The notes under the pieces are model-generated. The model was not told where the DNA came from. It saw only the letters and a program-made list of their open reading frames with translations, and searched no databases. A program made the translations under genes and the position numbers. Of a stretch of DNA of 64,000 nt, positions 2,110-41,502 are shown one piece after another. The DNA comes from Obelidium mucronatum. Its lineage: Eukaryota > Chytridiomycota > Chytridiomycetes > Chytridiales > Chytriomycetaceae. The DNA lies in contig JAIVFH010000004.1 of assembly GCA_025765595.1 (NCBI GenBank), positions 62,001-126,000 on the forward strand, read 5' to 3'. The stretch's first letter is position 1, and each line of letters begins with the position of its first letter.

Positions 2110-2907
2110 ATGAAAACATTCACGTCGGCATCGACTCAAACTGAGTCTGAAACATCAGACTTTGAACTAACGCGCAAGGCGTACGATGCATTGACATCCG
2201 CGCTGTTGGTGTCTTGTTCTTCATCCAACCACGATTCTTTGAATCACAGTTCGCATCCACTTCTTTCTAAAAGTGGCCAGGACTTTCATCCTTTGACTTT
2301 CGAGTCTCTTTCAAGACACAGCAGTGTACCGGGCTCGGATTTTATCGACATTGGTGTCAACGATCTTTTGAACAAGGAGGATTCGTTTTCTTGGAACAAC
2401 TGCTCCTTTCATACGTCACCTTCGTCTCCTATCCAATTGGACTATTACAATAATAGTTATAACTATAAGTTTGACACCTTGGTCGATCATCTTCCTGCTG
2501 TGGGGCAATCCACTTTTCCTTCACCAGACTTGACTCCCCAAATCCCTCCAATCCAACTTCCTGACCAGAATTCCCATTTAAATGCAGACCCTTTGCATAA
2601 AAATGAAGCGGATCTAATCGGGATTTTCGCGATTCCTCCAGCGCATGTTTTCGAGTCAAGTTCAAGTGTATCAAATCACAAATCAGCCGTTCAAAAAACA
2701 AAGTCAAAGCGATTCAAAGCGTCTGCAGATATATTTGGCTGCCTTTCTGCGTATTTTAGATTCAATCCATTCCCGACGGCGAAGGAGGCGGAAAGTATTG
2801 GCATTGAGCTTGATATGAAACCACGTCAAGTTAAAGTTTGGTTCCAAAATCGGCGTAGTGCTTTGAAAAAGATGGGCGAGGAAATTAAAAAGACGAGAAG
2901 AAGCTGA
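2110..2907 (+). CDS. Homeodomain protein HD1 (class A, divergent)
   Basis: Single-exon gene of 265 aa. The homeodomain lies at about residues 200-257 and ends close to the C-terminus. It has the class A loop FNPFPT and an intact recognition helix VWFQNRRSALKK, so Trp48, Phe49, Gln50 and Asn51 are all present and DNA binding is expected. The N-terminal 195 residues are Ser/Pro/Asn-rich and look disordered. Unlike its neighbours it has no RRxSLP box, no Trp48 intron and no C-terminal FFVE box; it stops soon after a basic tail (KKTRRS). It is the first gene of the array, and HD2 starts only 125 bp after its stop. A nuclear transcription factor is the family expectation; the targets are unknown. 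Confidence 0.9.
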   Translation: MKTFTSASTQTESETSDFELTRKAYDALTSALLVSCSSSNHDSLNHSSHPLLSKSGQDFHPLTFESLSRHSSVPGSDFIDIGVNDLLNKEDSFSWNNCSFHTSPSSPIQLDYYNNSYNYKFDTLVDHLPAVGQSTFPSPDLTPQIPPIQLPDQNSHLNADPLHKNEADLIGIFAIPPAHVFESSSSVSNHKSAVQKTKSKRFKASADIFGCLSAYFRFNPFPTAKEAESIGIELDMKPRQVKVWFQNRRSALKKMGEEIKKTRRS

Positions 2908-3032
2908 ATGGAAGGAGAATCAATAAAATAAACTTCAGAAACACGAAATTTGAACCCCATCCCCCAAGCCCCTTTGTCGAAACACCAGCAGCCTATTTGA
3001 AACTTCCACTTGAAAGAAAAACGCCATCCAAA

Positions 3033-3976
3033 ATGTCCCCGGCTGTTTGCAATACTCAGATCGTTGCTGATGACTGCTACTTTGTTCCAAGCCATTCCGT
3101 ACCAAGCCATTATTCAAACAGCAGCATGGATTCTCTTCTTAGCCGACAATCCCCCATCGCCACGCCACCACGTATGAAGCTCAGTATCCCAAGTCTTCAA
3201 CATTGCATTGCTCCAAATCATACGCCTACCGACATTATTCTCATGAACTCTCTTCTGTTGCCGCTCGATCAAAGTCAGTTCCACTTCAGTGAATCAGATC
3301 TACTGCACGCACATCTTGGAAATATGGACCTTATGACACCCAGTCCCATGATTTTACCACGAAACGAAAACAATGCAAGTTATGCAACTTGCTTCTCCTT
3401 TGACTTTGTGGATCATACGGTATCGAATAACGAAGTTGCGGCTCAGCAATTTCCAATCCTGGACTCCGAGCACTTCTCTTCATCCAGTCCGATTCCATCT
3501 TCATCGCAACCACCCAACCAACAGCTGACTAAACCCGTCTCGCTCGATGGCGTAATGGATTCCCCTCCCCAGTCTCCAAACCCGCCACCCACCATTTCCC
3601 CCAAAAAGAACAAAAAGATGCGTTTCAGGGCCACAGAAGCGGAACTTGATTTCCTTTTGACAGTATTTGAATCGAACCCATTCCCAAGCACAAGGCAGCG
3701 GATCCAACTCGCCGAGAAGCTAAGCCTTGATCCAAAGCAAATTCTCTTCTGGTATGACTCCCCGAGTTTGACTTCCAAAATTTTCACACAATATCTGATA
3801 CAACTTCGGATAGGTTCCAAAACCGACGTGCAACTTTAAAAAGTAACGGCATTGTTGCAGTCAAACCGAAAAAGACGGCTGCGGCGACAAGTCTTGCTTT
3901 CAGGGGCAAGAATTGCACATTATCGCCTTTGTCCGCGGAAAATCCCTTTTTCTACGTTGCCGAAACATCCGAATAG
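3033..3976 (+). CDS. Homeodomain protein HD2 (class A)
   Basis: Two exons, 3033-3751 and 3814-3976, joined across a 62-nt intron (donor GTATGA, acceptor ATAG), give 293 aa. The intron splits the Trp48 codon (TG/G), so exon 2 begins inside the recognition helix with FQNRRATLKSNG. The homeodomain is at about residues 195-254 with loop SNPFPS. Exon 2 ends in the class A C-terminal box, LSPLSAENPFFYV. The start is the first ATG with a plausible context; the frame is open a little further upstream but only from a non-ATG codon. The N-terminal region is Ser/Pro-rich and contains SLLSRQSP, perhaps a degenerate form of the RRxSLP box found in other members. Confidence 0.88.
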
Positions 3977-4402
3977 ACGAAACGAAACCATCCTTGTTTT
4001 GCGTTATTTTATTTTCTTCAGCTTTTGCTGAAATGTGTATTATGTGAATTGCTGTTGGGATGAAGACATGATGAAATAGAGTTTTCTGGAAGGGGCGTAT
4101 GTACGAAATTTTCAACAAAAAAGATGAGCAACCCTCATTAGATGTTATCCCATAATTATCCTCGTTTATTTAAGTGTCTTCGTGTGATTTAAGCCTCCTT
4201 GTTTGTTTCGTGAAATACGGAATTGTCGAGCACCCTCGTTTATAAAGTGCCTGAAATCTCTTTTCATGTTCATTTATGAATGGCAATTATTTTAGAGTTC
4301 TGAGATTTTAGCATTTGGGATCCAAATAGCCGCTCGGGAAAATTGTCATCAGACGGTTTTACAACAAAATGACAAGAGGGAATGAAACCCTAAAAAGTAA
4401 TA
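3977..4402. other. Spacer HD2-HD3, no gene seen
   Basis: AT-rich sequence with no coding frame that I can support. A TATAAA (4433-4438) lies just downstream of the first possible HD3 start codon and about 60 bp before the second (4496). This favours the second ATG. Confidence 0.5.
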
Positions 4403-5593
4403 ATGAGATTTCAGGGTCCGAAGAGAAAGAGTTATAAAGGCAATGCTAATGATTTCTATCGGCCTAGACTCTCCGTCAAACACCCGACTCTGTCAATGAG
4501 TGGCGATCACACCCAAGGTGCCCAACTCTCACAAGAGCACTTAGAACAGCAAAATCAACAACCGATCAATAACTCGATGGCATTTGTGCTCGACCGCCGA
4601 TTCTCTCTACCATTTCTTCCTGGAACAGCAATGCCGACCAGCGCCACAGAGTCACCAATTCCAACCAACGTGAATATGATCACTGCACAAATGATGCAAG
4701 CGCAGAGATATTCATCCAGCCAATTTAGTCGACGTATGTCGCTTCCAGCTGGACTAATGTATCAGCCATCGATGACACCTGTTCAATCGCAAACTGCAAC
4801 TTCAATAGCACGGAATCCAGGGTTGGAATCGTTTAAAATGTATGGTCATGTTGCTGGCGACTTGATGCTTTCATCTGAATTCAGCAGTCCACAACAAGTA
4901 ACACCAACCTTTACACCATACGGACTACCGATAACATCAGCATCTACATACAATTTCGAGAACGCATTCAATGAGCTTCTACTTGAAAAGCATCTGAGTC
5001 AGCAATATGCAGTGTTTTCTGAACATCAAGGGAAACCGCCGCAATTTGTATTTGGCTTTCAGCCACAAAAGCAGCCGAAGGAAAACTCGCAAGTTGCCTC
5101 AGGACTTGATACTATTCACGAAACAATTCAGGCTCCAGTTCCCCTACCTATGCCAGAGTTTTACAGTACATCCAGTCCACCACCTGCCACCAACAGTCCA
5201 CCGGCACAACAGTTGTCTCCAGTTTCAACTACAGTATTACAAAGGTCTAAAGACACAATCTCTGGAAAAACACAGCAAAAGTTCAAACCTACGGAAGCAC
5301 AGCTGTCGACTCTTGTTGGCGTGTTTGAGAAAAACCCATTTCCAAGCGCAGCTCTGCGCACCCATTTGGCTGAAATGCTGGACATTCAGCCAAAACAGGT
5401 TCGCTTCTGGTTCCAGAACCGGCGGGCTACATACAAGATCAACGGTATTTATGTCGTGAAGCCAAAAAAGGGGAAACTGGGGAATACAAGTGGAGAAGTA
5501 ATTCAAAGAGGAGGAGGCGAGGGAGCCTTGGCGCCAATATCAAGCGATAATCCGTACTTTTTTGTGGATGCTTCGCGAAAGGCAATGTTTTAG
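4403..5593 (+). CDS. Homeodomain protein HD3 (class A)
   Basis: Intronless, 396 aa if translation starts at 4403. The in-frame ATG at 4496 (365 aa, starting MSGDHTQ) is more likely, because a TATAAA at 4433-4438 then lies about 60 bp upstream, the spacing seen for HD5, HD9, HD10 and HD17. Two N-terminal boxes are clear: LDRRFSLP and SRRMSLPAG. The homeodomain is at about residues 291-350, with loop KNPFPS and helix 3 RFWFQNRRATYK, followed by the conserved NGIYVVKPKK arm. The C-terminus carries APISSDNPYFFVD. It is one of the class A members lacking the Trp48 intron. The RRxS boxes fit basophilic kinase (PKA-like) sites; this is inference. Confidence 0.9.
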   Translation: MRFQGPKRKSYKGNANDFYRPRLSVKHPTLSMSGDHTQGAQLSQEHLEQQNQQPINNSMAFVLDRRFSLPFLPGTAMPTSATESPIPTNVNMITAQMMQAQRYSSSQFSRRMSLPAGLMYQPSMTPVQSQTATSIARNPGLESFKMYGHVAGDLMLSSEFSSPQQVTPTFTPYGLPITSASTYNFENAFNELLLEKHLSQQYAVFSEHQGKPPQFVFGFQPQKQPKENSQVASGLDTIHETIQAPVPLPMPEFYSTSSPPPATNSPPAQQLSPVSTTVLQRSKDTISGKTQQKFKPTEAQLSTLVGVFEKNPFPSAALRTHLAEMLDIQPKQVRFWFQNRRATYKINGIYVVKPKKGKLGNTSGEVIQRGGGEGALAPISSDNPYFFVDASRKAMF

Positions 5594-5832: not shown

Positions 5833-7007
5833 ATGGCGCCATTCCAGTTTCCACCACAAGAGCCCACCCCAGCAAGCAGCAACGAGGGTAACTGCTCACA
5901 CCATCGGCTTCTTGATCGCCGCTTTTCGATGCCCATCGCGTTTGATTCTTCTATCTTCAGCCATCAACTGCAGTCGCTTGTCCCAGACTCTGACCCATTA
6001 ACAGTTTCGGAGCTGTCCAGACGCATGTCGCTCCAATACCCGCTTCCTGACTTGACCAATATTCAATTTGCTAGTAATTTCGAGTTTCCAACTGTAACTC
6101 AGGATGAAGTGAGCATGATGGAGTTGATGAGTTCTCCCATTCCACCCAGCTTTGGGTTGTCAAACACCAACAATCCAGAGTCGAACGACTCTTTTATCCG
6201 ACGAATGTCTCTTCCTTTTGCTTTTCCTTCTGATTCAAGCGATGCTGGGTTTATGGATTACAGCGGTTACTTCACCCAAGAACTTGACAGTACACCTGAA
6301 TACTACAACACCAACGAGCCCGAACAAGGATCTATCGATCCCGCAGAAACTTTTTGTACAGAGTCACTCAATAGAGTTGCTTCTCCTCTGGTCCTTCCCA
6401 TCACTCCTCCACAATCACACCTCTCCTCCACCCAAACGCGAAAGTCATCTATTTCAACCACCCCTGCAATGGCATTGTCATACTCGATCAAGCGGAAAGA
6501 TAGCTATACCCCTACTACCCCAGAGCCTGGTATGGATATGGTTCTAGCAACTCCACCGTCTTCGCCACGGCCATCGCGACGCGCGTCTATCGATTCCGGG
6601 AAACATCAGCGATTCAAACCAACTGAATCTGAGCTTGTCATGCTGACTGCGATTTTCCAAAAGAACCCTTTTCCTTCGACACCATTGAGAAAGAAGCTTG
6701 CGGAACGGATGGGTCTTGATGTGAAGCAAGTTCAATTTTGGTGAGTTATTTTCCGCATTTTATGCTTGCTATTCGATCTCTTTTCTTATTTTTTGGTTGG
6801 GTGAATAGGTTTCAAAACCGAAGGGCTTCAATGAAACAGAATGGGATCCATGTTGTGAAACCAACAAAGAGCTCTGGTTCTTACTGCAGCAAAAAAACCA
6901 AGAGAGCTTCGCTATCGCCGTTATCGGCCGATAGCTTGTATTTCTTTGTGGATTCGGGACTCTATTCGGATGTGTCTCAAAATCAAAGCGATGCCCACGA
7001 TGTCTAG
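5833..7007 (+). CDS. Homeodomain protein HD4 (class A)
   Basis: Exons 5833-6740 and 6809-7007 (68-nt intron, GTGAGT donor) give 368 aa. Three RRxS boxes precede the homeodomain: LLDRRFSMP, SRRMSLQYP and IRRMSLPFA. A linker TPEPGMDMVLATPP followed by SRRASIDS leads into the homeodomain at about residues 258-317 (loop KNPFPS). The intron is in the Trp48 codon. Reading through it gives TGG-TGA, so an unspliced transcript would end exactly at Trp48, before Asn51. Exon 2 continues with FQNRRASMKQNGIHVVKP and the C-terminal box LSPLSADSLYFFVD. The start at 5833 is the first ATG. Confidence 0.92.
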
Positions 7008-7627: not shown

Positions 7628-8658
7628 ATGGAAAATCACGAAGAGTTTGATAGATCCATGGGTTTCACGGATGCTTCAAGTCTTGCCTTATTACTCGACC
7701 GGCGATTCTCATTGCCAACAGGTTTTCCTCTTTTACAACCGGACCAAAGCAACATGGAACTTCTCTTGTCTAATAGTTGCGACTCATCCATGATGGAACT
7801 GCTCAATTCTTCACAAGTTTCTCCACCGCAAGTTCAACCAATCGCATTGTCTGAAAGCGAGTTTGAAGCTCTTACTCGACGATTCTCCGAGCCTTTCAAT
7901 CCTCTCATGATTCCGACGGAGCCATCTTTCTTGAGTCCGCAAATGGATTTCTTTATGCTGTCTCCCCAATGCTCGCAATCTTACGCTCCTGTCGGTACCA
8001 ATCTCACCTTGTCATCGCCTGGTTCGGTTTCTTTGCACGCACCAGCCCTCATTCCGACAAGCACGTTCCCGTCCATACATTCCACTCCTTCCTCGTCCCC
8101 AAAATCAGAAATCAATCCAATCCGCTCCCCAAAGAAATACTTTGCAGGAAAAATGCTAGAACGCGAACGCGGCTTTGATATTCTCAACACAATGGAAACA
8201 GCTGCACCGACACCGCCAGAAACAATTCAATCGCGTCGGAGCTCGATTTCCGAAGACGGTCGGCCTGCGCGATTCAAACCCACAGAATCTGAATCGGCGC
8301 TCTTGTGTTGCATATTCCAAAAGAACCCTTTTCCCAGCGCGGCAATGAGACAGAGGATTGCAGAGAAAATGGGGCTTGAGATGAAGCAAGTTCAGTTTTG
8401 GTAAATTCGTTGTGTTGTTCATTTTTTTAGGTATTTTTTTTTATTTTCTACAAGTCCTTTTAAAGTTTTGTTCAAACTTTCGTTAGGTTTCAAAATCGAC
8501 GTGCGTCCATGAAAACTCACGGTGTCCATGTGCTCAAGCCGAGAAGAAATAGTTCTGTAGCTGGTACGGGAATTGGATTGGGTGTTGATAGTGTTGTTTT
8601 AGGAGGAAAGCTGAGTCTACTTGACGAGGATAATCCATTCTTTTTTGTTGAGGAATGA
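7628..8658 (+). CDS. Homeodomain protein HD5 (class A)
   Basis: Exons 7628-8400 and 8487-8658 (86-nt intron, GTAAAT donor) give 314 aa. The N-terminus has LLDRRFSLPTG close to the start and TRRFSEPF further on. The linker RGFDILNTMETAAPTPPE then SRRSSISE leads into the homeodomain at about residues 213-272 (loop KNPFPS, helix 3 QFW/FQNRRASMK). Retention of the intron would give TGG-TAA and stop at Trp48. Exon 2 is glycine-rich after the NGIHV-like arm (HGVHVLKPRR) and ends in LLDEDNPFFFVEE. A TATATAAA sits about 50 bp upstream of the ATG. Confidence 0.92.
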
Positions 8659-9421: not shown

Positions 9422-10429
9422 ATGCCCTACTTTTCTCAAATGACAAATAGAACAACAACAGAAATGACCTTCAACAACAGCCGCAACCAAGACTTTGATA
9501 TCACATCAACTTTAACTGCAAACGATTTACAAGCTCTCGACGACATCTTGCTACTTGACCCAAGCTTTGCTTTGATGGCCTCTTTTGGCCAAACTACCTC
9601 GTACTCTCCACTTCCTAACGGTGATGCCTCTGGGCTTTTAACAATGCCAATTCAAGGAATGAACTTTGCACACCAGTTTGGTTCCCATTCAGAATTCGTT
9701 CCTTTCGAATTCGAGACCATGGTACAAGTTGTTTCGCAGCAGCAACAGCAAGTTCCTTGTGAATATACAGCCGCTTTCTCTCCAAGCCAGGATTCAAGCT
9801 CCTACAACATGTTCCAGACTGATTTTGACTTTCTATCGACACCTCAAACACTCATCAGTTCTATCCATACTTCACCATTACTGGTCAACTCATCCGTGCC
9901 ATCACCTCCATCCATGGAACCGCGCCACGTTCCAAGAGACACGTCCACGACAAGTTTCTGCAACAGCACGATTAACCCTTTGCTTGCACCGAAACGATTC
10001 ACAAACTTGAAGTCTCTCGAAAACGAAGCAGGTCTTGAACTTCTTGGAAACTTCCCACTCACGCCTCACACGGTGGTTGAGAGACGCCGTAGATCTGTTT
10101 CCACTTCTGGAAAATTCACAAGATTCAAGCCGACTGAATTGGAGGCTGATTTGTTGAACGCCTTGTTTCAAAAGAACCCGTTTCCAAGTGCACAGTTGCG
10201 TAAGAAGTTGGCAGACCGGTTTGGGTTGGATATGAAGCAAGTTCAGTTCTGGTTTCAAAATCGAAGAGCAGCTATGAAAATGAGTGGAATCCATGTGTTG
10301 AAGCCGAGAAAGGCGGACGGTGAGGTTTTGGAGGAGGAGTTTGAAGTGGAGGTTGGAGTGGCCAAGAGAAAGGTCTCGTTGAGTCCACTTTGCCAAGATA
10401 GCCCATTTTTTTATGTAGAGAAGAGCTGA
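9422..10429 (+). CDS. Homeodomain protein HD6 (class A)
   Basis: Intronless, 335 aa from the ATG at 9422. Because a TATATA at 9397-9402 is only about 20 bp away, one of the in-frame ATGs at 9440 or 9464 may be used instead. The usual LDRRFSLP box is absent, but the pre-homeodomain linker is conserved (NEAGLELLGNFPLTPH, then RRRRSVSTS). The homeodomain is at about residues 232-291 (loop KNPFPS; helix 3 QFWFQNRRAAMKMSG). The C-terminus has an acidic stretch (about EEEFEVEVG) and then SLSPLCQDSPFFYVEKS. The N-terminal half is Ser/Thr/Gln-rich and probably acts as a disordered transactivation or docking region. Confidence 0.9.
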   Translation: MPYFSQMTNRTTTEMTFNNSRNQDFDITSTLTANDLQALDDILLLDPSFALMASFGQTTSYSPLPNGDASGLLTMPIQGMNFAHQFGSHSEFVPFEFETMVQVVSQQQQQVPCEYTAAFSPSQDSSSYNMFQTDFDFLSTPQTLISSIHTSPLLVNSSVPSPPSMEPRHVPRDTSTTSFCNSTINPLLAPKRFTNLKSLENEAGLELLGNFPLTPHTVVERRRRSVSTSGKFTRFKPTELEADLLNALFQKNPFPSAQLRKKLADRFGLDMKQVQFWFQNRRAAMKMSGIHVLKPRKADGEVLEEEFEVEVGVAKRKVSLSPLCQDSPFFYVEKS

Positions 10430-10573
10430 TTCGACTGAAGACGCAGACAGTCGCGGCATGCAGGCATGCCTGGTAAATAACCAATAAATAAATTGAATCG
10501 CAGTGTGATTAAAGACACCCGCTACTCGCCCCTTCAGCCACCCAATCAATATCAGTGCAAATTTGTGTTTCCA

Positions 10574-11468
10574 ATGTCGCTTTCCGCCGTCGCCCGCCGC
10601 CATTCGCTGCCGTCCGCCGCCGCCGACTTTCACGTGGAAGCGGCGCACTTTCTGCAGGCAACGATGCTCGCGCGCCGCCTCTCGCTGACGCAGGCGCCAT
10701 CCGACGCACTGTCGCAGCCGCAGTCGTTTCCGTTTCTGTTTCCGCAGCCAGACTTGGCGCACTGCGGCGCCGAGCAAACCTTCCTCGATCTGCTCGACGT
10801 CTCCGAAGGCGTGGACCCGTACAGGCACTCAATCGATCCGATGTGTCTGGGAACAGTTGAAGGCGTTTCTCCGACGCACTCGGCTTCTTCTGAGGCAGCG
10901 CTGGTGGAATTCGAAACTAGCGACAGTCCACAGCCAGACCTTGCTCTCGATGTGTCACCTATTCCAACAGATGCTGAAATAGAACCCGGCTTTGACATAT
11001 TATCTTCTCTCGAAGTCTCGTCTCCACCAGCCCGGCAGCGTCGGAACTCTCAGAGTCAAGAATCGACTCGGGGCGATCGATTCCGAGCCACGGAAAGCGA
11101 GTTATTCCTCTTGACGGCGGTGTTTGCAAAGAACCCATTTCCCAGTGCAGCGTTGCGTGATAGAACTGCAGAGAAGCTTGGCCTCACTGGTCGGCAAGTT
11201 CAGTTTTGGTCAGTCTTTTTTTTATTAATGCTGTTGTGTTAAGCACCACGTTCGTGATTTAACTAATCTTTACGGCGCGTCCGTCTATCGCAGGTTCCAA
11301 AATCGCCGCGCCACGTTAAAGAAGGCTGGTGTTCATGTCTTGAAGCCACGAAAAGGCGCCTGCCGCAACGGAAGTTACGATGGCAACAAGAAGAGACCAT
11401 CGTTGTCTCTTCTCTCGGATGAAGCCCCCTTCTTTTTCGTCGAGACAAAGGAAGAATCATCGACTTAA
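10574..11468 (+). CDS. Homeodomain protein HD7 (class A, GC-rich N-terminus)
   Basis: Exons 10574-11208 and 11294-11468 (85-nt intron, donor GTCAGT, acceptor GCAG) give 269 aa. The ATG at 10574 starts MSLSAVARRHSLPSA, so an RRxSLP box lies at residues 8-12; a second, ARRLSLTQ, follows. The linker EPGFDILSSLEVSSPP with QRRNSQS leads to the homeodomain at about residues 167-226 (loop KNPFPS). Here the class A QVQFW is preceded by TGR rather than a xxK. The C-terminus is SLLSDEAPFFFVE. The first 250 nt of coding sequence are strikingly GC-rich compared with HD6, which creates several open antisense frames that I regard as shadows. Confidence 0.9.
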
Positions 11469-11739: not shown

Positions 11740-12944
11740 ATGCCGTCTCCCGCGCCGCGCCGCGCCTCGTTCCACCACGCCGCCCGCCCGCAGAACCCGG
11801 CGCCGCCGCTGATCAACACGGTGCCGCCGCCGCCGTTCGATCCCGTCAGACAGCCGCCGCCCTCGTTCTACATCAACAGCTCGAGGTCGCCGGTGGTTTC
11901 GGCCACGGCGGGCCTGCCGAACCCAACACTGACGAACCTGCCGTTCTCACAACATCACTTGGAGCAACAGCAGCGGCAGCTGCAGCACACCTTTCCTAGA
12001 GACTTTGCCTCTTTCCAAATGGGATCTCTCCCGCCCCACTCGAACCTCTTACATACCCCCGACCTATCGTCGCTCTCTACTGACCTCGTACCAATGAATA
12101 CACAACTGAACCAGTTCGACCTCTTACCTGATATACGAAACTCGTCATACCTCTTCGCACCTGAAAACTTTGAAATGCTGGAACGATACAACTCCGATCT
12201 GCTTGCTGGTACAAGCTACTCGAACAACTCATTAACATCTCCAACCGTTGCCACTGGTGGCAGCGGCTTCAAACCAAACATGGTTGGCAATAACAACAAC
12301 AACAACATGAACAACAACAACAACATGAACATGCCGCAAGTGTCCTTCATGCCTGGCGCCGCCGATTTCATCGACATGGACAGATTTGCCGCTCTCCGTA
12401 TGCATTCAATGCCAATCCTGACAACAACAACATCCATCACAAGCCCAATATTTGCCCCTTCAACGTTTACAAGGTCTCCCTCAGAACCAAAGTATGACGC
12501 CATTGGTATGGTTTCCCCACAAGCACAAGCTACATCCCCTCCGGCTTTGTCATCTCCAGTACCGCCCTTCTCGGCTCCATCCAACAACAACAACGCCATT
12601 CAGTCAGTGAAGCCCCGATTCAAGCCAAATGAAGCTGAACTTGCGTTGTTGAATGGAGTGTATTCGAAAAATCCGTACCCAAGCGCAAACACACGGAAGC
12701 GATTGGCGGAAAAATTGGGGCTTGAGTTGAAGCAGATTCAATTTTGGTACTTATTTCTCAGTTTCTTCTATTGTGTTGTTGGATATATTTTTTTTCTAAA
12801 TTGATCCTTAGGTTTCAAAATCGTAGAGCTTTGAGCAAGGCAAATGGTGCTCCTGTGTCTAAACCGAAAAAGGGGACTCCGTCTTCTACGTCAACGCCTG
12901 AAGCAGAACCAAAGCCTGTTGCAGTAGAACCTACTTCTCAGTGA
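11740..12944 (+). CDS. Homeodomain protein HD8 (class A, no C-terminal box)
   Basis: Exons 11740-12746 and 12812-12944 (65-nt intron, donor GTACTT, acceptor TTAG) give 379 aa. The N-terminus is Pro-rich (MPSPAPRRASFHH), with one RRxS site, and is encoded in a GC-rich patch. An Asn/Met-rich run lies in the middle. The homeodomain is at about residues 291-350 with a variant loop KNPYPS and helix 3 QFW/FQNRRALSK. The KPKK arm is kept, but exon 2 then ends without the PLSxDNPYFFVE box, one of the few class A members to lack it. The start at 11740 is the first ATG; the frame upstream opens only from a non-ATG codon. Confidence 0.88.
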
Positions 12945-31497: not shown

Positions 31498-32379
31498 ATG
31501 TCCCAGGTCCCAAAAGTCCCTTTGGCCACTATCTTGCGGGAGACGATGACAAATTCAAAAAGGAAGGCCCCAGCAAGCTCTGAAGTGCAACCGCTGAGAC
31601 CGGCGTTTGTCGACAGACTCGCCTCCTCTGTTGGATTGGGAATTACGTTGGCTCCTGTTCCTACCACCCCGACAATGTCATTCGAAGAAGCAGAGGCTAT
31701 CTTGACAAGTCCCCTCTGCAGCCCAAATTTAAAACCTTCGGACTCTGCGAGTCTGCTTTCTCGTCCCCAGCTTTGCATTGTGGATAGCACACAACCGCTG
31801 GATTGCTTTACTCAAGCCGCTTCGCCTGTCAACGGTTTTCCGCAGCCTGAAAGCCGTAATTCGAGTATCTCAAGCGTCTCTAGCACCTTTTCCGACTTAT
31901 CTGAAAGCAGAAGCGGGGACATGTGCAATGGCGCCATTTTGTCATTAATTGCATTTAGTCAAGCCCCACAAGTCAGCACGCACCACCAGCCACACCACTT
32001 GGCACTGTCCACGACAACACAAGCACCACCACCTCAAAATCTTATCTGGAAGCCAAAACAAGGCGAGACCCTCCGGAACCAGCTGCTGCCATCGCCATCA
32101 AAAGCAAACACCACAAGTCTCTTGCAAAAAGCAATCAGTGCGGCTCCTTCTGTTTGCGTTCCCTCTGCAACTCAGCCCGAGAATGAAAAGCAGCGAACTC
32201 GATTAACTCACGAGCAACGTGAATACATGATGCGAATCTTTGAGATTGACCACTAATCCTTCGAGTAAAGTTATGCGTCAGGTGGCGGAAACGGTTGGAA
32301 TGCGGTTCAGACTTGTTCAATACTTCTATCAAAACAGGACGTGCAGGCATTGAGGAGAAAGTCTGGAAAGGAAGTTTAA
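31498..32379 (+). pseudogene. HD20, class B homeobox with broken homeodomain
   Basis: The frame from 31498 contains MSFEEAEAILTSPLCSP and FPQPESRNSSISS and enters a class B homeodomain (RTRLTHEQREYMMRIFEID), then meets TAA at 32254. The remainder, NPSSKVMRQVAETVGMRF and LVQYFYQNR, continues in another frame. Two more single-base insertions lie around 32338-32347, inside the recognition helix, before ALRRKSGKEV and a stop at 32379. Like HD19 it has Phe in place of Trp48 and Tyr in place of Phe49. Three breaks within 100 bp suggest decay, but the wider indel problem in this window means a sequence artefact is also possible. The 5' end is uncertain. Confidence 0.6.
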
Positions 32380-32583
32380 AAAATGTTACGTACACTTTTA
32401 TTTTGGTTTGATACCTTTTTACTCTTTTTTCTATTTCTTGCGTATTCTTTCCCCCATAGTTATTATGTTGCCGAAATACCTTATAATAAACTTTAATACT
32501 AATACTGATGGCAGTCTGGGTAATTCTAATCAATTTTTTATTTTTCTGGACTAATTCAACTTGTATAAAAATGAGAAAAGTGT

Positions 32584-34959
32584 TCAGTCTTCTTCCTCCT
32601 CGGCTGCTTCTTCGCCTTCTTCTGCAGCTTCCTTGGCCTCTTCCTCCTTTGCCCGTTTTGCTTCTTCGAAAGCAGTCTCCTCTTCGACTGTTGGATCTTT
32701 TTGCTCAACCATTCCCTTTTCCTTGATAATTGGGATTCTCAGGATCATCTGGATTCTCTTCCTTTTCAATGATCACAAATTCTTTGGCGATTTCAGGCAG
32801 AACTGGAGGTAACAGCAAACCATCCTTCAAATACATGCCCTTTCCAACATCTCCATGCCCATCTCCCACGTAAAGATTCGCGAATTTGTCATTGTACGCG
32901 ACAACAACTGCACCCTGGCCATCTGGTACTACGAAGCGCCACAGGCGTGAACTTACAGGACTCAAGGTACTACAAGGTCTAGCCACCCACGCTGGCCCCC
33001 CTTCCGGAGCATCTTCATCATTAGCAAGGGGAGTCAACAAGGGAGGTCCAGTTTCAGGTTCCGCAGTTTCAGCAGGGTTCTCTTCCTCCTCTCCCTCTCC
33101 CTCTTCTTTCTCTTCATCATCGCCTCCTTCGTCTCCGTCTTCATTGTTTTTCGCGAGGCTGGCAAATGGGTTCTCCCATGTGACTCGGCCTTGTGGGAGG
33201 ATGTATGGGACGTGGTGGACCCAATTCGAGAGCATGAGGAGGGAATCGTTTGGAAGTCCTTCAAACTCTGGATTGATGATGATTGTGGGTTGGTCTGTTG
33301 TGAGATGACTAAAGAAAAAGCAATGTGTTTTGTTAGCCCTTTTTTTTTTTATCTGCAGAAGGCGAGCCGAACTCACGTCCTTCTTCTTCGTTTCCTTCAT
33401 CTTCTGGATCGAATGTGTAGTATCCTGCTGGACTTGCAACGGTTGCTGCTGATATTCTAGCAATTTGGCAACGCAAGTACTGAGCCTCAGTTCCTTCGAA
33501 TTTCGGGTAAGAAATAATCTTTGAAAACGGATGCAAAATTTTTTTGTGAAGTGGTTGCGCGTATGATATTCGAAACAAAAAAAGAGTTTTACTTGATGGT
33601 TCAGGTCTCCTGTAAAGTACTTTCTGATTTTTCGTGAGATTTGAAGTTTTTCATGGAATCACGTCAGGCAATCTAACCCATGGAGCACCAGCTAAAGCCC
33701 CACCAATTTTTTTAATTACAGAAAAATATCTAAAACATATATAAAGAAAGACAAAAAAAACTCACGGTAAGAACAGACATAATAAACGTATCTGTTCACT
33801 CCTGCGCGTTGCTCTTTTGGCAACGGCGGCAAGCACTTTTGTTTTTGGCTTTGGAACTCCAGCGTCTTCAGCTACTGGCTGCAGCAGCGCCTTCACCCTC
33901 GGCGGCGACAGCAGCACTTCCATCAGCCAGCCGCAGCTTCAGCAGCTTCGGGATCTACAATCCCATTCACTGCATCCCCCTCTTCGTCATTTGCACCATC
34001 TTTAAGTTCACCCTCCGTAATAATATAGGAGCTGTTGAGACCATGGATTTTGCCCCACAATCGAACTGATTTAAGCGGCTTTTCGGCAACAAGTTTGCGT
34101 AAGGAAAGGAACAACATAAATGTCTCCTCTCTGCCAAAGGAAACCTGTTTTTGTTTCTGACTAAATATTTCATCTAGATCAACGGCTAAAATAATCCCTC
34201 ACCCCAGCCCATTCCCACAAATTAGACAAGTCCATAATATCAGGAATTTCGCCGAGTCCTTCTTCGGGGGCGTCTTCTTGAGATGGTTGCTGTAATATGG
34301 CTGGCTTCAGAGAAATATTACTACCCCCCCACCTCATACCTCGTATAGCTTTATTTGGGTTTTTGCGATCTTGATTCCAGGCAGTCCATCAAAAGCGGGC
34401 TGAAAGAACGTGTCGCGTTAATAAAAAAAATACAACCAACAGTTATCCTCCACCCCTCCTCACTTACGCGGAATGCAGAAGACATGGGATCCACAGATCT
34501 GAACTTTGATCTTTTGATTTCAGAAGAGATGGACTCAAATATGTCGATTGGGTTCTTTGGTCGCGTTTCCAACACTCTCATCACTGTCAAAGTGAGGTGA
34601 TCATACATGTTCATTTCTGACTTTTCCGAGTTTTGCAGTAGATATGAACGGGCCAGCTGGAACTCGACATCCTCATGTAGCTCCGCCTCGGGTTTGTAGT
34701 ATACATCTTTTCGCTTCAGATAAGGCGTAGTTGATTCCACAAGGGTTTGTTGAGGCGCGAGATGAACAGATGGTTCGTCTGCCACAGGCGCAGCGGATGG
34801 CACCGGAACAGGTGCCTCTGTCGCGATCGATTCTGGGGCAACTGGAGTTTCGTTTGCTGGAGCTGAGCTGGGTGGTGATGGCTCCTCTTCCTTTGGAGCA
34901 TCTACTGGTGCTTCGCTTGGAGTGGCTTCTGGAACTGGTGCGTCGACCTGGTCGTCCAT
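32584..34959 (-). CDS. RSP4/6: Radial spoke head protein RSP4/6 (RSPH4A/6A family), with frame breaks
   Basis: A structural subunit of the radial spoke head in motile 9+2 axonemes. The start is the ATG at 34959. Recognisable family segments in order: [84 protein letters not shown] and [47 protein letters not shown]; and an acidic C-tail after DPTVEEE. At least five introns are seen (first donor at 34467). Single-base breaks lie at about 33651-33655 (between LPDVIP and its continuation), near 32724 before DPTVEEE, and possibly in the Ala-rich stretch 33840-33930 (or an 87-nt in-frame intron there). It is convergent with HD20. The family assignment is secure; the frame breaks are probably indels in the sequence. 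Confidence 0.85.
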
Positions 34960-35628
34960 TCGTATTTCTGTTCCTTTGTTTGATGCGGAAGATTGACAAT
35001 TCCAATTCGCGAAATATCACCAACTCTCCTTCTTCCCATAGTTATATGGCCATGCTGGCGCGGTAGATTGAGCTTATGGCATTCGCTGATTAAGAGGTAT
35101 TGCGACTTGTTGTCTTCATTGTCTTCACTTCTGGCAAGGTGCCAGATAAAACCTCAAAAAAAATGTCCCATCCATCATGCCTACGAGTTTATTGGAATAG
35201 TTCAATCATTAGTCACTAGTGCTGTTCTCGGCTTGAAATAAGGAGTGTTGATTGCTTCCAGCGTTTTCAGGTTTCCTGCTGAAAACAATAAAGGGAAAAA
35301 ACAAACCAACAAACGGCTGAATGTATATCTATTTTGATACGATTTCTTTGTTTTGTCAGTGTATGGGATCGACAATCCTCAAAAGATCGAGAGCGGGAAT
35401 CACTGGAAATAGGCCCAACTCTCCTCCTGTTCAAACGCGCCCTAATCTTCATCCTTCATATCCGCTCAATCAGATTCACGCGTTGTCAGGCTCGGCAGAG
35501 TTGCACTCACTCTCTTTGCCGCTGTCAGTCAATTTAGAAGCAATAAATAGAATACAATTCTTTTAGCAAATCGACAAAACAATTTTCCCTGCTTTCGTTG
35601 CCCACTTCTCAGTTTGACAGCAGTCTCG
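34960..35628. other. Divergent spacer RSP4/6 - HD21
   Basis: About 670 bp between divergent genes. No gene is supported and I see no conserved element. Confidence 0.45.
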
Positions 35629-36795
35629 ATGGATCACGCACGGTTTGTTCGCCCATCCCGCGCCTTGGCACATTCTCACCCCGCACGCCGCAGCCAAGCC
35701 CACGCGCAAGCCCACGCGCGCGCGCCGCCGCCGTCGGCCGTCGTGCCCGTGTCGCTGTGGGCCGTGCACGCCGCCGCCGCCGCGCCGCACAAAGCCGCGG
35801 CGTTCCACCACCACCGCCACGCGCCGCACAGCCACGCCTTTGCGCTCGGCGCCCCGCCGCGCTTTATTCCGAGCTCGCAGATGCGCCACCCCCACATCGC
35901 CGCCCAGCCGTACCCCGCGTATTCTGCGGGCCCCGCAGCACCACCTGCAGCAGCAGCAGCAACAGGAGTCGCGTCCCGCGGGCAGACCCGTGATATCTGC
36001 CATACCCTCATCAGTTACCGCAAAACACCAGCTCGCATCATTAGAAGAAGCCTTTAGAAAGTCGAATAAGCCAACAAGGTCTGAAAAGAAGGCCTTGAGT
36101 GAACGCCTGGGAATTCCGTACAAGAACATTCAGCTATGGTAATTGAAATGTTTTATGTTCCACCCTGCCTTCACACAATACCAACATATTTTATTACCTT
36201 TAACAACCAGGTTTCAGAATCGTCGCGCTGCAATTCGACGTGAAGACAGACAGCAGCAAGATACAGTGTTGGCGAAAAAAGACGCATTTTCTGCTTCCCA
36301 TCACGTCGCAGTCACCCTCCCACTTCCTTCAGCTGCATTGCAAGCTGACATAGCACCACAATCTGCAGATCCTGATATCCAACAGCAACAGACGACACCT
36401 CTTGCATCTTCTCTTGAAACCATTAGCATGAAATCAGAAGGCGACTCGGGCGATTCAGCCCAATCTCCACCTGGATTTTATCCTACAGATACACCTTCAC
36501 CAAGTGGCCCTGCCGCATGGTCCGGAAATGATCAAAGTAAAACTGTTAGACCAAGAATTAAACCTCGAAAAGATCAGACTGACTACTTGCTCGCGTGTTT
36601 TGCCCAAAACGGACGTCCAGACAAGGAAGAAAAAGGAGAGATTGCAACTAAGCTGGGCCTACCATTAAACTTTGTAACTTTGTGGTCAGTGTCATCTTTC
36701 ATTTCAATTTTTTTTGTGTTGTTGAACTTAGTTTACATTTCAGGTTTCAAAATCGCCGAAGTAAAATGATGAGGGAAGGAAGCGTCTGTCTCTGA
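35629..36795 (+). CDS. Double-homeodomain protein HD21
   Basis: Encodes two complete homeodomains. HD21a (LASLEEAFRKSNKPT..., helix 3 IQLW/FQNRRAAIRRE) is interrupted by an intron at 36139-36210. HD21b (RIKPRKDQTDYLLACF..., loop NGRPD, helix 3 VTLW/FQNRRSKMMRE) is interrupted at 36685-36743. Both introns sit in the Trp48 codon, as elsewhere in the array. About 150 residues, partly Gln/Ser/Pro-rich, separate the two. The N-terminus (MDHARFVRPS..., His/Ala-rich, very GC-rich) is in a frame different from the first homeodomain; the change falls in the CAG-rich stretch 35925-35965. The frame stops at 36795, but a neighbouring acidic frame stays open to 36905, so a further one-base indel near 36775 is likely. 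Confidence 0.8.
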
Positions 36796-37086: not shown

Positions 37087-38692
37087 TCACGGAATATACT
37101 CTTGAATGGCGTGGCCCACTGCAAACATGTGCATTTCATTTGAAGCCATCGCTAATGTAGTATTGAACAATGTACCCAGCTGTTTTTCAACTCGAGCTCT
37201 AAAGCCTTTGATAAACGAATGAACCTTTTCCTCCTTCTTGCGCATCTTATCGAAATCCATCATCATCCGTTTTGACATTGCCAATGTAAGTTTAGCAACT
37301 TTCTTGGCTCGTCTATTCCTCTTCTTGTTCTTGAATTTGTAAACAGTTTGCATTGAAAGCGCCGGTTTGATTGCATTGTTGATCTTCTTGAACCCAGTCT
37401 TGACCTTTTCAGGAACTTTCAACTTCTTTGTTGTGCCTCTCTTTCCCAAGAAGTTCCCACGCTTTCCCAACCCATCAAAAACAAACTGTATCACTTCAAT
37501 GCTTTCACTATAAACAACCTCGTCATAACACATGATTCCCGAATCCATCTCTAACCCATGCTTGACTGCCCAACCAGTCAAACCAACCAACGGATCATCC
37601 ACTTTAATAGCATCATAGACCCCACTTCCAGGAGGTATTTCTTGCACTGCACCTCCCCCACGCTCGTACCCACGGTTACTCATCAACTCTGGATTGATTT
37701 TCTGGAAATACTTGAAATATCGATCCAGATTCCCATGATGTAGCCAAAAGACGGGATCATCTGGACTCGAATGTAGATTCGATAACGTGCCGTATTCAAC
37801 TACCCCGCCGCCTCCACCGCCGCCGCTGCTTTGCAAGGACCCTGCTACTTGCATATGGAAAATCCCATGAGGCAAGTTGATGAAATCATTAAACTCAGTG
37901 TACGAAGCGTACGGCTGCGCGGTTTCCGGATTAATTTGAAGTGCTGTGAGCATAATCGTTTCACTAAACAGAGCGTCTTGGTCAGATGAATCGGTCGTCA
38001 GTGTCGCCGTCGAAAAGTAGCGCGTGATACACGTGTTGTACGTTGTAGTCCAATTGGCGAATGCAGAGTTGGATGGAAGGCAATGGTTCTGAGTAAAGAG
38101 TCCAGTCGTTCCAAAATTGGTGGCAGTCAGAATGCCTGTTTCGGGGAGGTACCAGGTGGCGCTGTCGGCGCCCCATGCCCAATAGGGAAGGCCAAATGTG
38201 GGGTCATTGAGGACTTGTTGGAGCTCTTGTTCGAAAAGGCGGAGAAAGACTCTGTGCCATGGTAGAAATGATGGAGTGTTGTGATACCATTCTGCGCCGA
38301 TTGCATGTACTTGGACAAAATCATTGTATCGATTGCCGTAAACGAGATCAGATGGCGTGGTTTTCAAAATTTGGAGGCCGGTGAGGAATTGCTTTTGCTT
38401 TGTTGGAGACAAGTCGCGGAAATCCATCCGTGAGACAGGAGAGACACAGTTTTGAATTGAAGGAGCTGAAAGAAATAGATTGCTCACAACTCTATTTTCA
38501 TGTATCGCGAGCGCGTCATTTGCATTGCATCGATTTGTACCAAGCCAGAGTATACCATTCACTCTTCGAATACAGTTGTGGTTCTGCCCGCTGTAAATAA
38601 CTCTCGATTCTTCAAAAATCCAGAGCTGTGATCGGTCTGCTGCGCAAGGAGCCAACTTGGCACTGAAGTTTTCAATATTCACAGCAACATGC

Positions 38693-38743
<51 letters not shown>

Positions 38744-39305
38744 ACGTTCACAATCCCTTTGGTTGATAGGTCTCCAGAGTTTGCAGAAGGTGCGTTCCAG
38801 CATAGTCCATTGCCAACGTTTCTGATTTGTCCAAAAGAACTATACCATAGCTGGTATGCGTTATTGCTTGAACATTGAGCAACAGTCAACCCGCCCGCCT
38901 ATTAAAAAAAAAATCAGCCAATATTACAACAACAGCAAAATATTATTGTCTTACGTTAGTCCCATCGATACACTGGCCACCCATTTTTAGTGTATCGACA
39001 GCTGTTCCCTGAACTCTTGGTTTTGGAGGGAAAGCAACAGACCTGATACGTATACTATCTTTTCCAGTACTTTTACAAGAATCAACACCCAAGAGTGCTC
39101 CGAATTTAGGACCCTTGTATCCAAATGCGCCCAAACATAGTGTGTCATTGCCAGCAATTTTGATAAACCCCGCCGACGAGCGAAACTGTTGATTTGCGTT
39201 TCCGGAAGTACATTGCTGGAAATTCAGTATTGAGCTAGCGGAATATGTGACGCATAGTTGGGGTTGCATTCCAGCAACATGTGTCGATATTGTGAAAGTA
39301 TCCAC
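37087..39305 (-). CDS. Tyrosinase (type 3 copper) with N-terminal beta-trefoil lectin repeats
   Basis: Oxidises phenols or tyrosine to quinones, as in melanin synthesis. Copper site A is in VHAIGAEWYHNTPSFLPWHR; site B uses LPHGIFHMQV and then SSPDDPVFWLHHGNLDRYF, so the six expected histidines appear present. Ahead of it are ricin-B-like repeats with QxW motifs (NAYQLWYSSF, SQLWIFEES, NANQQFRSS). Exons include 39305-38955, 38898-38746 and 38655-37087; the intron 38745-38656 contains the long poly-A/T run. The C-terminal 130 residues are Lys/Arg-rich. The 5' end is not resolved: the frame at 39305 does not begin with ATG, and an upstream exon (perhaps near 39570, MTKNNTLKPASS) is likely. I see no signal peptide. 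Confidence 0.85.
38694..38740. repeat. 47-nt poly-A tract inside a tyrosinase intron
   Basis: An unbroken A run on the + strand (T on the coding strand) just after the GTGAGT donor of a 90-nt intron. Its length is probably not exact in the sequence. Confidence 0.9.
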
Positions 39306-39821
39306 ATTAGTGAAGCTCTGTAAGCAGATTTTGCGTAGGAGATATAGTCATTGCAAGTTTCAAGGGCGAATTGAGCGCTGTTGTGAATCGTAGAAGCCTC
39401 CCAGCATCGTGACGTTCGAAGAATCAAATAGCTGAATGTATGCTGATGATGTGAAGCACGATTTTCACCGCATCCGATTGAAATGGTATAATATTCAGCG
39501 GATCTTTAGGGAAAATCATGGTCGTACTGGAGGCTGCCTGGATGACGCCGGTTTCAGGGTATTGTTCTTCGTCATTGTTGATTCAAAGACCGATTGTGAT
39601 TGGAGAGGATGAAATTCAAAGGAATCTAAAGAAAATGAATCTTGTATCTCTGTGACGTCATAAAATAGTATCGCAGCTTCCTTTCTGCACGTGATTTATG
39701 TATTGTAGCCAGCCAATGAGAATCGAATGGCAAAAATCCCTCAAACCAAAAAAACGCAAAAATCCCTCAACTCCCTCCATCCACTGCCTCAAACGTCTTA
39801 ACGCCATCCAGTCTGTCTCTC
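39306..39821. promoter_or_regulatory. Divergent spacer tyrosinase - HD22 with CRE and E-box
   Basis: TGACGTCA (39653-39660; an ATF/CREB-type palindrome) and CACGTG (39688-39693) lie 27 bp apart between the divergent genes. The first tyrosinase exon probably also lies in this interval. Confidence 0.5.
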
Positions 39822-40571
39822 ATGTGTGCATTTATGGATAAAGTAAGTCGAGGTCTTACCATACTCCATCTGGCCCAGAGAGCGCTCATACCAACAACAA
39901 GACACTCTTCAAGCAGACGCCATCACCAGCCTTCCTCTGGCGCCCAGATCCAAGGCTCTCGCCATCAAATACTGAGATCGAGAGCTGTCCACCGCTGTCA
40001 CCGGCGGGAAGCGCTTCCCCCAACCACAGCCCCATCTGTCACTCCAACACAAATTGGTTGAACCAAGATCAAGACCAGAAACCGACACTACCACCACTAT
40101 CCCAGCTGCTGTCAGCACTTGCTTCACAAGCCGCCGTCATTCCATTCACACTACCTGCTCGGTGTATTCTACCGTCTACCCCACTGATCCAACCACCAGC
40201 TGCTAGCACGCCCAATATTCAGACCTGTATTATTCGACCCATACCCATAACAAGCTACAATCAAACAAGATATCAAGTCGAAGTCCCTGGCGGCCTGTGC
40301 AAAACTTCCAGCCGACCTTGTTCGAACGCAGAGTTCAAATTGACAATCCACCAGCTCAACCTTCTCAAGAAAGCGTTTGATGCCAACGACACCCCAAACG
40401 TGGCAGAGTATGATCGTATCAGCACTGAGCTTCAGATTCCCCGAAAGTTTCTACTTACATGGTGAGTTTTTTCGCACAATTTCCAATTCAGGTGAACTAA
40501 AAAAGCATCCTCTTTTTTTTTGTAGGTATAGACATCGGAGGGCCAAAGACCGGAAGCAAAGCCGCAAGTAG
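39822..40571 (+). CDS. Homeodomain protein HD22 (class D, Asn51 replaced by His)
   Basis: Tentative three-exon model: 39822-39842 (MCAFMDK, GTAAGT donor), 39902-40461 and 40526-40571, 208 aa in one frame. The homeodomain (FKLTIHQLNLLKKAFDAND, helix 3 LTW/YRHRRAKDRKQSRK) has normal spacing from the helix-1 Phe to Trp48. Positions 49-51 are Tyr-Arg-His instead of Phe-Gln-Asn, so the Asn51 that contacts adenine in almost all homeodomains is missing. The last intron splits the Trp48 codon and reads TGG-TGA if retained. The protein ends right after the homeodomain. The N-terminal region is Ser/Pro-rich and shares PTLPPLSQLL with HD23. The first exon is a guess from splice sites. Confidence 0.78.
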
Positions 40572-40710
40572 TATTAAAGAGGTCTTTTTTTTCTCATCGA
40601 TTTTGTAATAAAAACCCCAAGTGTCTCGCAAAAACCCCTCGCGATGAAAAAACAGCAAAAATCGTAGCAAAAATCGCTCACTCTCACACTCACACTCGCC
40701 CCTCAACACT

Positions 40711-41502
40711 ATGACAACCTATGTAGGCATCGTCCTTCTAAATGACTTTCCCTTTTGTCTTTGCGACTTCATCGGTCTCGCACGCTGACCAGCTATTTCC
40801 TTCTGCCTTCTGATAGACTTTGAGTTCTTTGCAAGCAGACGACCAGCCCCCAAGTCCCACCTATTCCAACTCCCCAAAAAGATACATCACTCATCACCGA
40901 GCTCATTCAACGTATTCGCATTGTATAACGCCGAACGGAAGCGTCTCACCAAGGAGGCAATCTCCATCATCACCCGCTTCGCCTCCCTCAAGTTCGAATG
41001 ATGTCTATACATCATCTCACCCCATCCGACCAACCCTGCCGTCGCTTTCGCAAGTTCTAGTACATGTATTGAATGCCAGAGAAAGTTCTGGTCCCTTCAT
41101 CCTGCCGCTTCCCAGGGGAATTTCTTCTACTACCAATCCTACCTTACCACCGTCCCCGACAGCGAGTATAACAAGAGCCTCAAAATTTCAAATCCATGTA
41201 CCGACTGGTCCTTCTTCTACCATACCATCGCATTACAGCAGCAAGAGCCGTGACTTCAAAGTATCTTTTCATCAACTTGCCTTGCTGAAGCGAGAATTTT
41301 CAAACACGAAGCACCCAACATCAAGTGATTATGATCGGATAAGTGCTGTACTAAATATCCCTAGAAAGTTTGTTTTGACATGGTGAGTATTCTGCATCTG
41401 TTTCCTATTCCTGATAATAGTAATGCCCCTTTATCCAGGTTCCGCCATCGACGAGCAAAGGACAGACAACAATCAGAAACACAAATAAAAAAGAGGCAGT
41501 AA
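40711..41502 (+). CDS. Homeodomain protein HD23 (class D, Asn51 replaced by His)
   Basis: A paralogue of HD22. Exons 40817-41382 and 41439-41502 are firm (56-nt intron in the Trp48 codon, GTGAGT donor). The first exon 40711-40722 (MTTY) is tentative but keeps frame and gives 213 aa. The homeodomain (FKVSFHQLALLKREFSNTK, then IPRKFVLTW/FRHRRAKDRQQ) again has Arg50-His51 in place of Gln50-Asn51. PTLPSLSQVLVHVL matches HD22 PTLPPLSQLLSAL, and both have DYDRIS/EYDRIS in helix 2. It is the last homeobox gene I can see in the window; the next genes are on the other strand. Confidence 0.78.

Follow-up and report, generated by a model that had tools for sequence, protein, structure and literature searches.

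A single-strand row of homeobox genes in Obelidium mucronatum

The sequence analysed here, hereafter the window, is a stretch of 64,000 nucleotides (bases 62001-126000 of contig C4, which is 726,426 bases long) from the assembly of Obelidium mucronatum (48.3 Mb in 694 contigs), a fungus classified in the Chytriomycetaceae, Chytridiales, Chytridiomycota, and it carries a row of homeobox genes that all lie on the plus strand. A six-frame search with a profile made from the window's own homeodomains identified 24 homeodomains in 23 genes between window positions 2110 and 41502 (Table 1), a weak match at 39056 (expectation value, E, 0.99) being left out of the count; the two numbers differ because the homeodomains at 36011 and 36539 share one gene, g36. 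Twenty of the genes are packed into 2.1-32.4 kb (about 30 kb), the last of them being the pseudogene g32, and three more follow up to position 41502. The homeodomains were located at window positions 2695, 3606, 5267, 6595, 8258, 10109, 11063, 12604, 14574, 16312, 17483, 19025, 21250, 22418, 24198, 26036, 27796, 29163, 30570, 32182, 36011, 36539, 40325 and 41240. Modelled gaps between the genes from g02 to g30 range from 128 to 1793 bases, the longest becoming shorter if the upstream open frame of g21 is counted. The homeobox of g32 contains frameshifts and a stop that split its homeodomain between two frames, which identifies it as a pseudogene; it is not among the PF00046 matches. The row comprises 22 genes and one pseudogene on a single strand, with the frames of g16 and g21 broken on the C4 haplotype.

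Across the whole assembly, at least 102 PF00046 matches were found, second-haplotype copies included, and because 21 of them sit within the 39 kb of the array, chance is excluded as its explanation. A preliminary description, made from the letters of the window, had reported from a fungus 20 one-strand genes in 30 kb followed by three more, and the profile search, the gene models and the chytrid origin of the contig agree with it. Of the 23 homeobox genes that it listed 22 stand, the decay of g32 having escaped it, and its limits of the array hold, yet the row continues upstream: four plus-strand homeodomains (group A) lie at C4:48073-53550, 8-15 kb upstream of the window. The minus strand has five further homeodomains at C4:1.3-8.0 kb, two of them weak (<20 bits), and another is at 141.5 kb, so that the first 142 kb of C4 contain 34 homeodomains, leaving out two matches whose E was about 1 or higher.

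Table 1. Homeobox genes and interspersed genes of the array (window positions; subfamilies and starred clade refer to the homeodomain tree; W48 intron, intron within the codon of homeodomain residue W48)
Feature	Position	Strand	W48 intron	Remarks
g02, homeobox gene	2110..2907	+	absent	PF00046 45.4 bits; outside subfamily B in the tree
g03, subfamily B	3033..3976	+	present, phase 2	dispersed relatives on C36, C47 and, weakly, C13
g05, subfamily B	4403..5593	+	absent	RRFSLP and RRMSLP; C-terminal motif
g06, subfamily B	5833..7007	+	present
g08, subfamily B	7628..8658	+	present
g10, subfamily B	9422..10429	+	absent
g11, subfamily B	10574..11468	+	present	NCBI BDR26DRAFT_890897; second structure model
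g12, subfamily B	11740..12944	+	present	C-terminal motif absent
g14, subfamily B	13668..15061	+	present
g16, subfamily B	15569..16611	+	absent	C4 allele with 5' part out of frame when compared with C195
g17, subfamily B	16793..17866	+	present	NCBI BDR26DRAFT_929718
g19, subfamily B	18416..19339	+	absent	Siphonaria protein 72% over 97% of length
g21, subfamily B	19763..21549	+	absent	frame split on C4; open frame of 591 residues on C195
g22, subfamily B, first branch within starred clade	21956..22686	+	present
g24, subfamily C	23511..24425	+	absent	best match for two Siphonaria proteins (59-61%)
g26, subfamily C	25649..26314	+	absent	5' end uncertain
g27, subfamily C	26923..28008	+	absent	Siphonaria reciprocal best hit (51%)
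g29, subfamily C	28446..29439	+	present	NCBI BDR26DRAFT_914607
g30, subfamily C homeobox exon	30543..30779	+	absent	model without 5' part
g32, decayed homeobox copy	32182..32380	+		frameshifts; DNA 80% to g30 over 142 bases
Radial spoke head gene (flagellum)	32705..35016	-		PF04712 in two open reading frames; between g32 and g36
g36, two homeodomains (36011, 36539)	35618..36795	+	present in each
Tyrosinase gene	37087..38898	-		PF00264; between g36 and g40
g40, divergent homeodomain	39842..40571	+	present	R50, H51
g41, divergent homeodomain	40817..41502	+	present	R50, H51

Homeodomain class and recognition residues

The curated cut-off of PF00046 was passed by 21 of the 24 window homeodomains, with g40 and g41 just under it (20.6 and 21.2 bits versus 22.9). 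The spacing between positions 20 and 48 is 28 in all 23 readable homeodomains (g32 is unreadable), as the preliminary description had it, and none of the 23 shows the three extra residues between helices 1 and 2 that define the three-amino-acid loop extension (TALE) class, which places the row among non-TALE homeodomains; the residues themselves deviate in g30, with F rather than W at position 48, and in g12, with Y at position 20. Eight window homeodomains also passed the cut-off of Homeobox_KN (PF05920), at 27-35 bits, and strong TALE-type matches to the same profile (37-72 bits) sit on other contigs. Residues F47, Q50, N51 and A54 are constant in the 13 genes of subfamily B, and N51 is present in 21 of the 23 readable homeodomains. 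The closest match among solved sequences was DUX4 and the best fold matches were PRRX and OTX2; the tree used for comparison held no ANTP rows. In the neighbouring genes g40 and g41, R50 and H51 replace the usual residues, and DNA binding by these two proteins may be different or lost.

A second haplotype and allelic variation

A separate contig, C195 (53,251 bases), aligns along C4:32431-84431 with 94-97% identity outside a repeat tract and contains all 17 homeodomains of the overlap in the same order as C4. It ends at g21, and the comparison of two haplotypes within the array covers g02-g21 only, g22-g41 being available from C4 only. Substitutions between the two contigs are mostly 1-3% in the array and amount to 0.2-3.4% per 2-kb bin over g02-g21 versus 0.9-10.6% in the flank, the bins at the edges being partial. 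For the 13 array genes with two alleles, the proportions of synonymous (pS) and nonsynonymous (pN) differences were 0.051 and 0.0058, a ratio of 0.115, and pN/pS was 0.148 for the 17 genes with a C195 allele when the upstream ones were included, these ratios being sums of rounded per-gene values in which g16 and g21 entered by partial frames. The alleles are under purifying selection overall, and the lowest ratios were found in g06 (0.00) and g19 (0.04).

Subfamilies, introns and the age of the duplications

The homeodomain tree comprised 105 rows and 71 columns, with 35 of its 97 inner branches open. Rows from Claviceps, those of contigs C13 and C135, haplotig duplicates and matches below 15 bits were left out, as were 21 out of 51 Chytriomycetaceae relatives; both C13 rows and C135_71.8 entered a separate tree of 19 B members. 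Three starred clades emerged. Clade B (99/93) unites the 13 array genes g03-g22 with four dispersed Obelidium rows and 26 of 30 relatives and includes none of eight outside rows. Clade C (99/94) contains g24, g26, g27, g29 and g30, a row of five genes on contig C100, the gene at 141 kb of C4 and three Siphonaria proteins, and clade A (99/96) the genes upstream of the window, two genes of contig C8 and one Siphonaria protein. The remaining genes g02, g36, g40 and g41 are long-branched or unplaced. Because several subfamilies occupy separate starred branches, the row is, judging by the tree, several families joined and not one burst. The local expansion proposed in the preliminary description is retained in this result, but a single expansion of a single family is not, given that subfamilies B and C, g02 and the genes at 36-41 kb are all joined in it. 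Two further groupings were seen elsewhere in the assembly. Five subfamily C genes form a second tandem row on one strand at C100:55595-60803 (L024), of which C464 is the likely second haplotype. On contig C6, two copies in inverted orientation and separated by about 18 kb, C6:193167-194687 on the minus strand and C6:212231-213742 on the plus strand (L026 and L027), each carry on one strand five divergent homeodomains at intervals of about 0.3 kb, which may belong to a single five-homeodomain gene.

The 105-row tree separated the subfamilies without fixing which duplications within B came first. At the DNA level, BLASTN among the array genes of the window aligned no stretch longer than 189 bases; almost every one lay over the homeobox, and the identities were 68-80%. 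The closest pairs were g30/g32 (80%) and g24/g26 (75%), and the upstream genes m10 and m11 are 89% identical over 175 bases. By this DNA similarity the duplications look old. Array proteins aligned to g19 are 29-36% identical to it.

A phase-2 intron of 59-86 bases interrupts the codon of W48 in nine genes between g03 and g29 and is absent from ten genes between g02 and g30 (Table 1). An intron at the identical place is found in g36 (twice), g40 and g41, and several other Obelidium homeobox genes, found by pattern, apparently have it as well. This presence across families suggests that the W48 intron is ancestral and has been repeatedly lost. When the intron state was placed on the tree of 19 B members, it required six changes, no fewer than in shuffles (mean 6.6), and few forks of this tree are supported; the mosaic is evident in the gene models, and the number of losses is not fixed by the trees. 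Copies resembling g03 are dispersed over C13 (two), C36 and C47 (two), at loci L001, L005, L038, L039 and L040, and have no W48 intron. Because they lack an intron that g03 itself has, these copies are perhaps retrocopies of a spliced message.

Conserved motifs and structure models

The N-terminal halves of the B proteins are variable. The N-terminal pattern RRxS[LVMI], which resembles a phosphorylation or 14-3-3 site, was present in 34 of 45 relatives versus at most three in 200 shuffles, and in seven of the 13 B genes of the array. At the C-terminal end, an LxPL...FFV motif was found in 35 of the 45 relatives versus at most one in 200 shuffles; both patterns were composed after viewing the sequences, and the 45 relatives include several strains of one species. 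Ten of the 13 array B genes have the C-terminal motif, the exceptions being g12, g14 and g22, and four Chytriomyces proteins with near-identical tails are, like g12, without it, one of which (2311) joins g12 in the tree.

AlphaFold2 models of g19 and g11 were confident in the homeodomain (blocks of about 89-96). Strands were modelled just past the homeodomain and at the motif, at residues 265-267, 286-288 and 296-299 of g19 and 225-227, 249-253 and 256-262 of g11, where blocks of ten residues at the motif scored 71-86 (g19) and 63-87 (g11). The remainder was mostly of low confidence, with a mean predicted local distance difference test score of 57.7 for g19 and 63.6 for g11. In these models, the C-terminal motif would form a small beta-sheet beside the homeodomain. 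Among the 50 best of 555 Foldseek matches (E up to 10), nearly all alignments covered 49-58 columns, which correspond to the homeodomain, and the longest among the matches listed was that to 2dms (80 columns, root-mean-square deviation 9.9). No START or paired domain was found in the ten proteins scanned.

Relatives in sister genera, linkage and gene order

When g19 was compared with 5.8 billion proteins, all 49 matches came from Siphonaria, Podochytrium, Chytriomyces, Obelidium or the window itself. A profile of subfamily B also gave 49 matches (best 7,992 candidates scored), of which 31 belonged to the Chytriomycetaceae and the other 18 spanned 14-36% of the query. The nine matches of the subfamily C profile (best 7,995 candidates scored) were three Obelidium and five Siphonaria proteins and one insect Rx-like protein. 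No row from Rhizoclosmatium appeared among the protein-search matches, the presence of the genus in the database being unchecked. As far as searched, Siphonaria, Podochytrium and Chytriomyces alone yielded close relatives of B. The comparison of 51 relatives by best hits gave reciprocal best hits, starred branches tie relatives to g05, g11, g12, g17, g19 and g21, and the homeodomain of g19 is identical to one from Siphonaria.

Several of these relatives are themselves linked. Four Siphonaria genes of one contig (HDU68_009073, 009074, 009076 and 009078) pair with g17, g19, g24 and g27 by best hits and in the tree. In Chytriomyces hyalinus, HDU81_002315 and 002316 pair with g17 and g19, and the contig that carries them also has the homeobox genes 2311, 2313 and 2314; in a second assembly of this species (HDU78) the g17- and g19-type genes have adjacent tags. 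Altogether, seven contigs of relatives carry at least two array-assigned genes. With order read from locus-tag numbers, both contigs with at least three assigned genes keep that of the array (g17-g19-g24-g27 in Siphonaria and g12-g17-g19 in C. hyalinus), an agreement that random orders would give about once in 36 times; the five contigs with two genes, in which the order test cannot fail, give linkage only. The tree and synteny comparison with related fungi that the preliminary description had proposed gives good support to linkage in sister genera and only partial support to a shared gene order. Another Siphonaria protein, HDU68_002296 (P0079), is an apparent head-to-tail fusion of two subfamily C genes, which may be an annotation join, and its first homeodomain ends before the recognition helix.

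A probable old tandem family and its possible role

The row is best explained as a tandem family of long standing, made up of non-TALE homeodomain transcription factors and, as far as searched, confined to the Chytriomycetaceae, with a probability of roughly 0.7. The linkage of relatives in sister genera points to an old row that has been kept, and not to an accident. Copies would have been born by tandem duplication, after which some decayed (g32) and a few moved elsewhere, possibly by retrocopying. Each gene is probably its own transcription unit with a separate promoter, as the modelled gaps of 0.13-1.8 kb would allow. Because F47, Q50, N51 and A54 are constant, and judging by homeodomain-DNA structures in general, the subfamily B proteins would read nearly one core DNA site. 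They would differ in the timing of their expression and in their partners, which may be reached via the variable N-terminal half, the RRxS[LVMI] motif and the C-terminal LxPL...FFV element. The likely job of these proteins would be stage-specific gene control along the cycle of zoospore, cyst, rhizoid-bearing thallus and sporangium.

Several observations weigh against this interpretation. That the genes are 'developmental' is here only what we infer, with action at particular stages of the chytrid life cycle as their most probable use. Gene starts are the first ATG of each open frame, taken without transcripts, and the C-terminal sheet is a model built from 28 and 24 sequences. Allelic pN/pS is higher in m14 (0.46) and m11 (0.45), both upstream, and in g16 (0.37), g02 (0.28) and g10 (0.25). 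The C4 alleles of g16, by one 5-base difference, and of g21, by two single-base differences, are broken relative to C195, and these breaks may be natural or may be sequencing errors. Linkage in the relatives comes from locus tags and contig sizes, not from DNA. HDU81_002313 is g06-like by BLAST and weakly g05-like in the tree, either of which would be out of order after the g12-like 2311, and the linked gene 2314 has no assigned counterpart in the array. Orthology is ambiguous for 2311 itself (g14 by BLAST versus g12 on a starred branch) and for Podochytrium 7490 (g10 by BLAST versus near g12 in the tree). Between the genes, neither of two core homeodomain sites was in excess, TAATTA occurring three times versus 4.5 expected and TAATTG six times versus 11.2. 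Nor was TAATCC enriched there, and TAATGA occurred 14 times versus 8.2 expected (standard deviation 3.1); there is no clear sign of cross-regulation among the array genes.

A stronger form of this interpretation would have the gene order kept over the age of the fungal family by shared control elements or by sequential switching-on from zoospore to sporangium, so that the row would be a fungal counterpart of the animal clusters whose building blocks are homeodomain proteins of one subfamily, marked by a folded element at the C-terminal end. At present this seems improbable.

It is also unlikely that the row is a fast-evolving reproductive cluster comparable to Rhox, that is, a set of recent, lineage-specific tandem copies under diversifying selection in gametes or zoospores. 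A large tandem row in one lineage, one pseudogene, the closer pairs g24/g26, g30/g32 and m10/m11 and the few genes with raised pN/pS would be in agreement with such an origin. Most members, however, are old, with DNA identities of 68-80% over short stretches and not about 95%, relatives exist in other genera, including the identical g19-type homeodomain of Siphonaria, and the allelic ratio of the 13 genes is that of constraint and not of diversifying selection.

A relic row of old, mostly redundant duplicates, held together by inertia and clustered without regulatory meaning, is likewise hard to favour. The identical recognition residues of subfamily B, the pseudogene and the frame-broken alleles of g16 and g21 would be expected from redundancy, but most of the genes are constrained and the C-terminal motif has been retained in 35 of the 45 relatives.

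A mating-type or self-recognition locus of the kind found in basidiomycetes is very unlikely. The assembly does contain two haplotypes of the region, and in Dikarya loci of this kind are built from homeodomain genes, but this row has no divergent pair, all 24 homeodomains being on the plus strand, and no TALE spacing, the strong PF05920 matches lying on other contigs; nor is there, over g02-g21, a peak of allelic divergence, the array bins being compared with those of the flank, and pN/pS indicates constraint. Orientation, spacing and allele divergence led to the rejection of this candidate.

Finally, an assembly artefact or collapsed repeat, a concern already raised in the preliminary description, has a negligible chance of explaining the row and is rejected for g02-g21 by the second haplotype, given that a separate contig repeats these genes with mostly 1-3% substitutions, that the aligned array proteins are too different from g19 to be copies and that linkage recurs in the locus tags of other genera, even though there is one assembly, the single-base differences of g21 could be sequencing errors and g22-g41 are available from one contig only.

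Comparison with known homeobox clusters

Homeobox genes belong to the type of switch genes by which animal bodies are patterned. To our knowledge, large homeobox rows have so far been an animal story, and we know of few regulators of the chytrid cell types (zoospore, cyst, rhizoid and sporangium). The animal Hox, NK and PRD-class (homeobrain-rx-orthopedia) clusters, which consist of other homeobox classes than the Obelidium row, also have adjacent homeobox genes linked in more than one genus; in contrast to them, the kin of the Obelidium row were found within one fungal family only, and the resemblance in form that the preliminary description had drawn is a likeness only. The HD1/HD2 mating-type loci of basidiomycetes are divergent TALE/non-TALE pairs with hyperdiverse alleles. 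They share with the row the presence of several homeodomain genes at a fungal locus, whereas the row has neither a divergent pair nor TALE spacing nor, over g02-g21, hyperdivergent alleles. Single non-TALE homeodomain proteins from plants, fungi and animals have a similar signature, with matches that include plant HDG and PDF2, DUX4, PRRX and OTX2, but matches outside the Chytriomycetaceae span only the short part of the B query given above.

Another lineage-specific tandem homeobox row is mouse Rhox, for which the 2006 report describes 32 predicted genes, called the most gene-rich homeobox cluster identified in any species, and a 40-kb unit present in eight copies that are 95% alike, with diversifying selection acting on paralogues of Rhox2 and Rhox4 (PMC1562416). 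Compared with this young mammalian cluster, the Obelidium genes are fungal, about 1.5 kb apart, old and constrained between alleles. Homeodomain or homeobox proteins are among the most dynamic transcription-factor families of early fungi (PMC10406608; PMC5415576). The passages on homeobox dynamics in these two papers do not mention a tandem array, and the name Obelidium is absent from the main text of the first (PMC10406608).

An earlier description of the array in other fungi, a possibility that the preliminary description had left standing, was not found: the open-licence literature in PubMed Central, by title and the start of the abstract, contained no description of a fungal homeobox array, which is not proof of absence, and nothing on homeobox together with Chytriomyces, Rhizoclosmatium or zoosporic fungi, subscription papers being outside this scope. 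Going by title, the open-licence literature found on the Obelidium genome concerned only TPPP proteins. Clusters of tandem homeobox genes have been described in animals, and for the fungal array no earlier description was found. As an old row in a chytrid, with linked relatives in sister genera, it would provide an independent case for asking why homeobox genes stay clustered and for testing whether clustering alone yields ordered expression, and it would represent, in chytrids, a lineage-specific set of transcription factors with its own homeodomain-linked element, as modelled.

Other features of the region

None of four telomere repeat patterns was found in C4:1-146000 or in C195. Between groups A and B, a minus-strand open reading frame of 2,101 residues (C4:55731-62033; window 34-765) consists mostly of 201-base repeats, and in the alignment of C4 with C195 the repeat tract occupies about 5.8 kb on C4 versus 7.8 kb on C195. 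Within the tyrosinase gene region, a run of 47 A extends over window positions 38694-38740.

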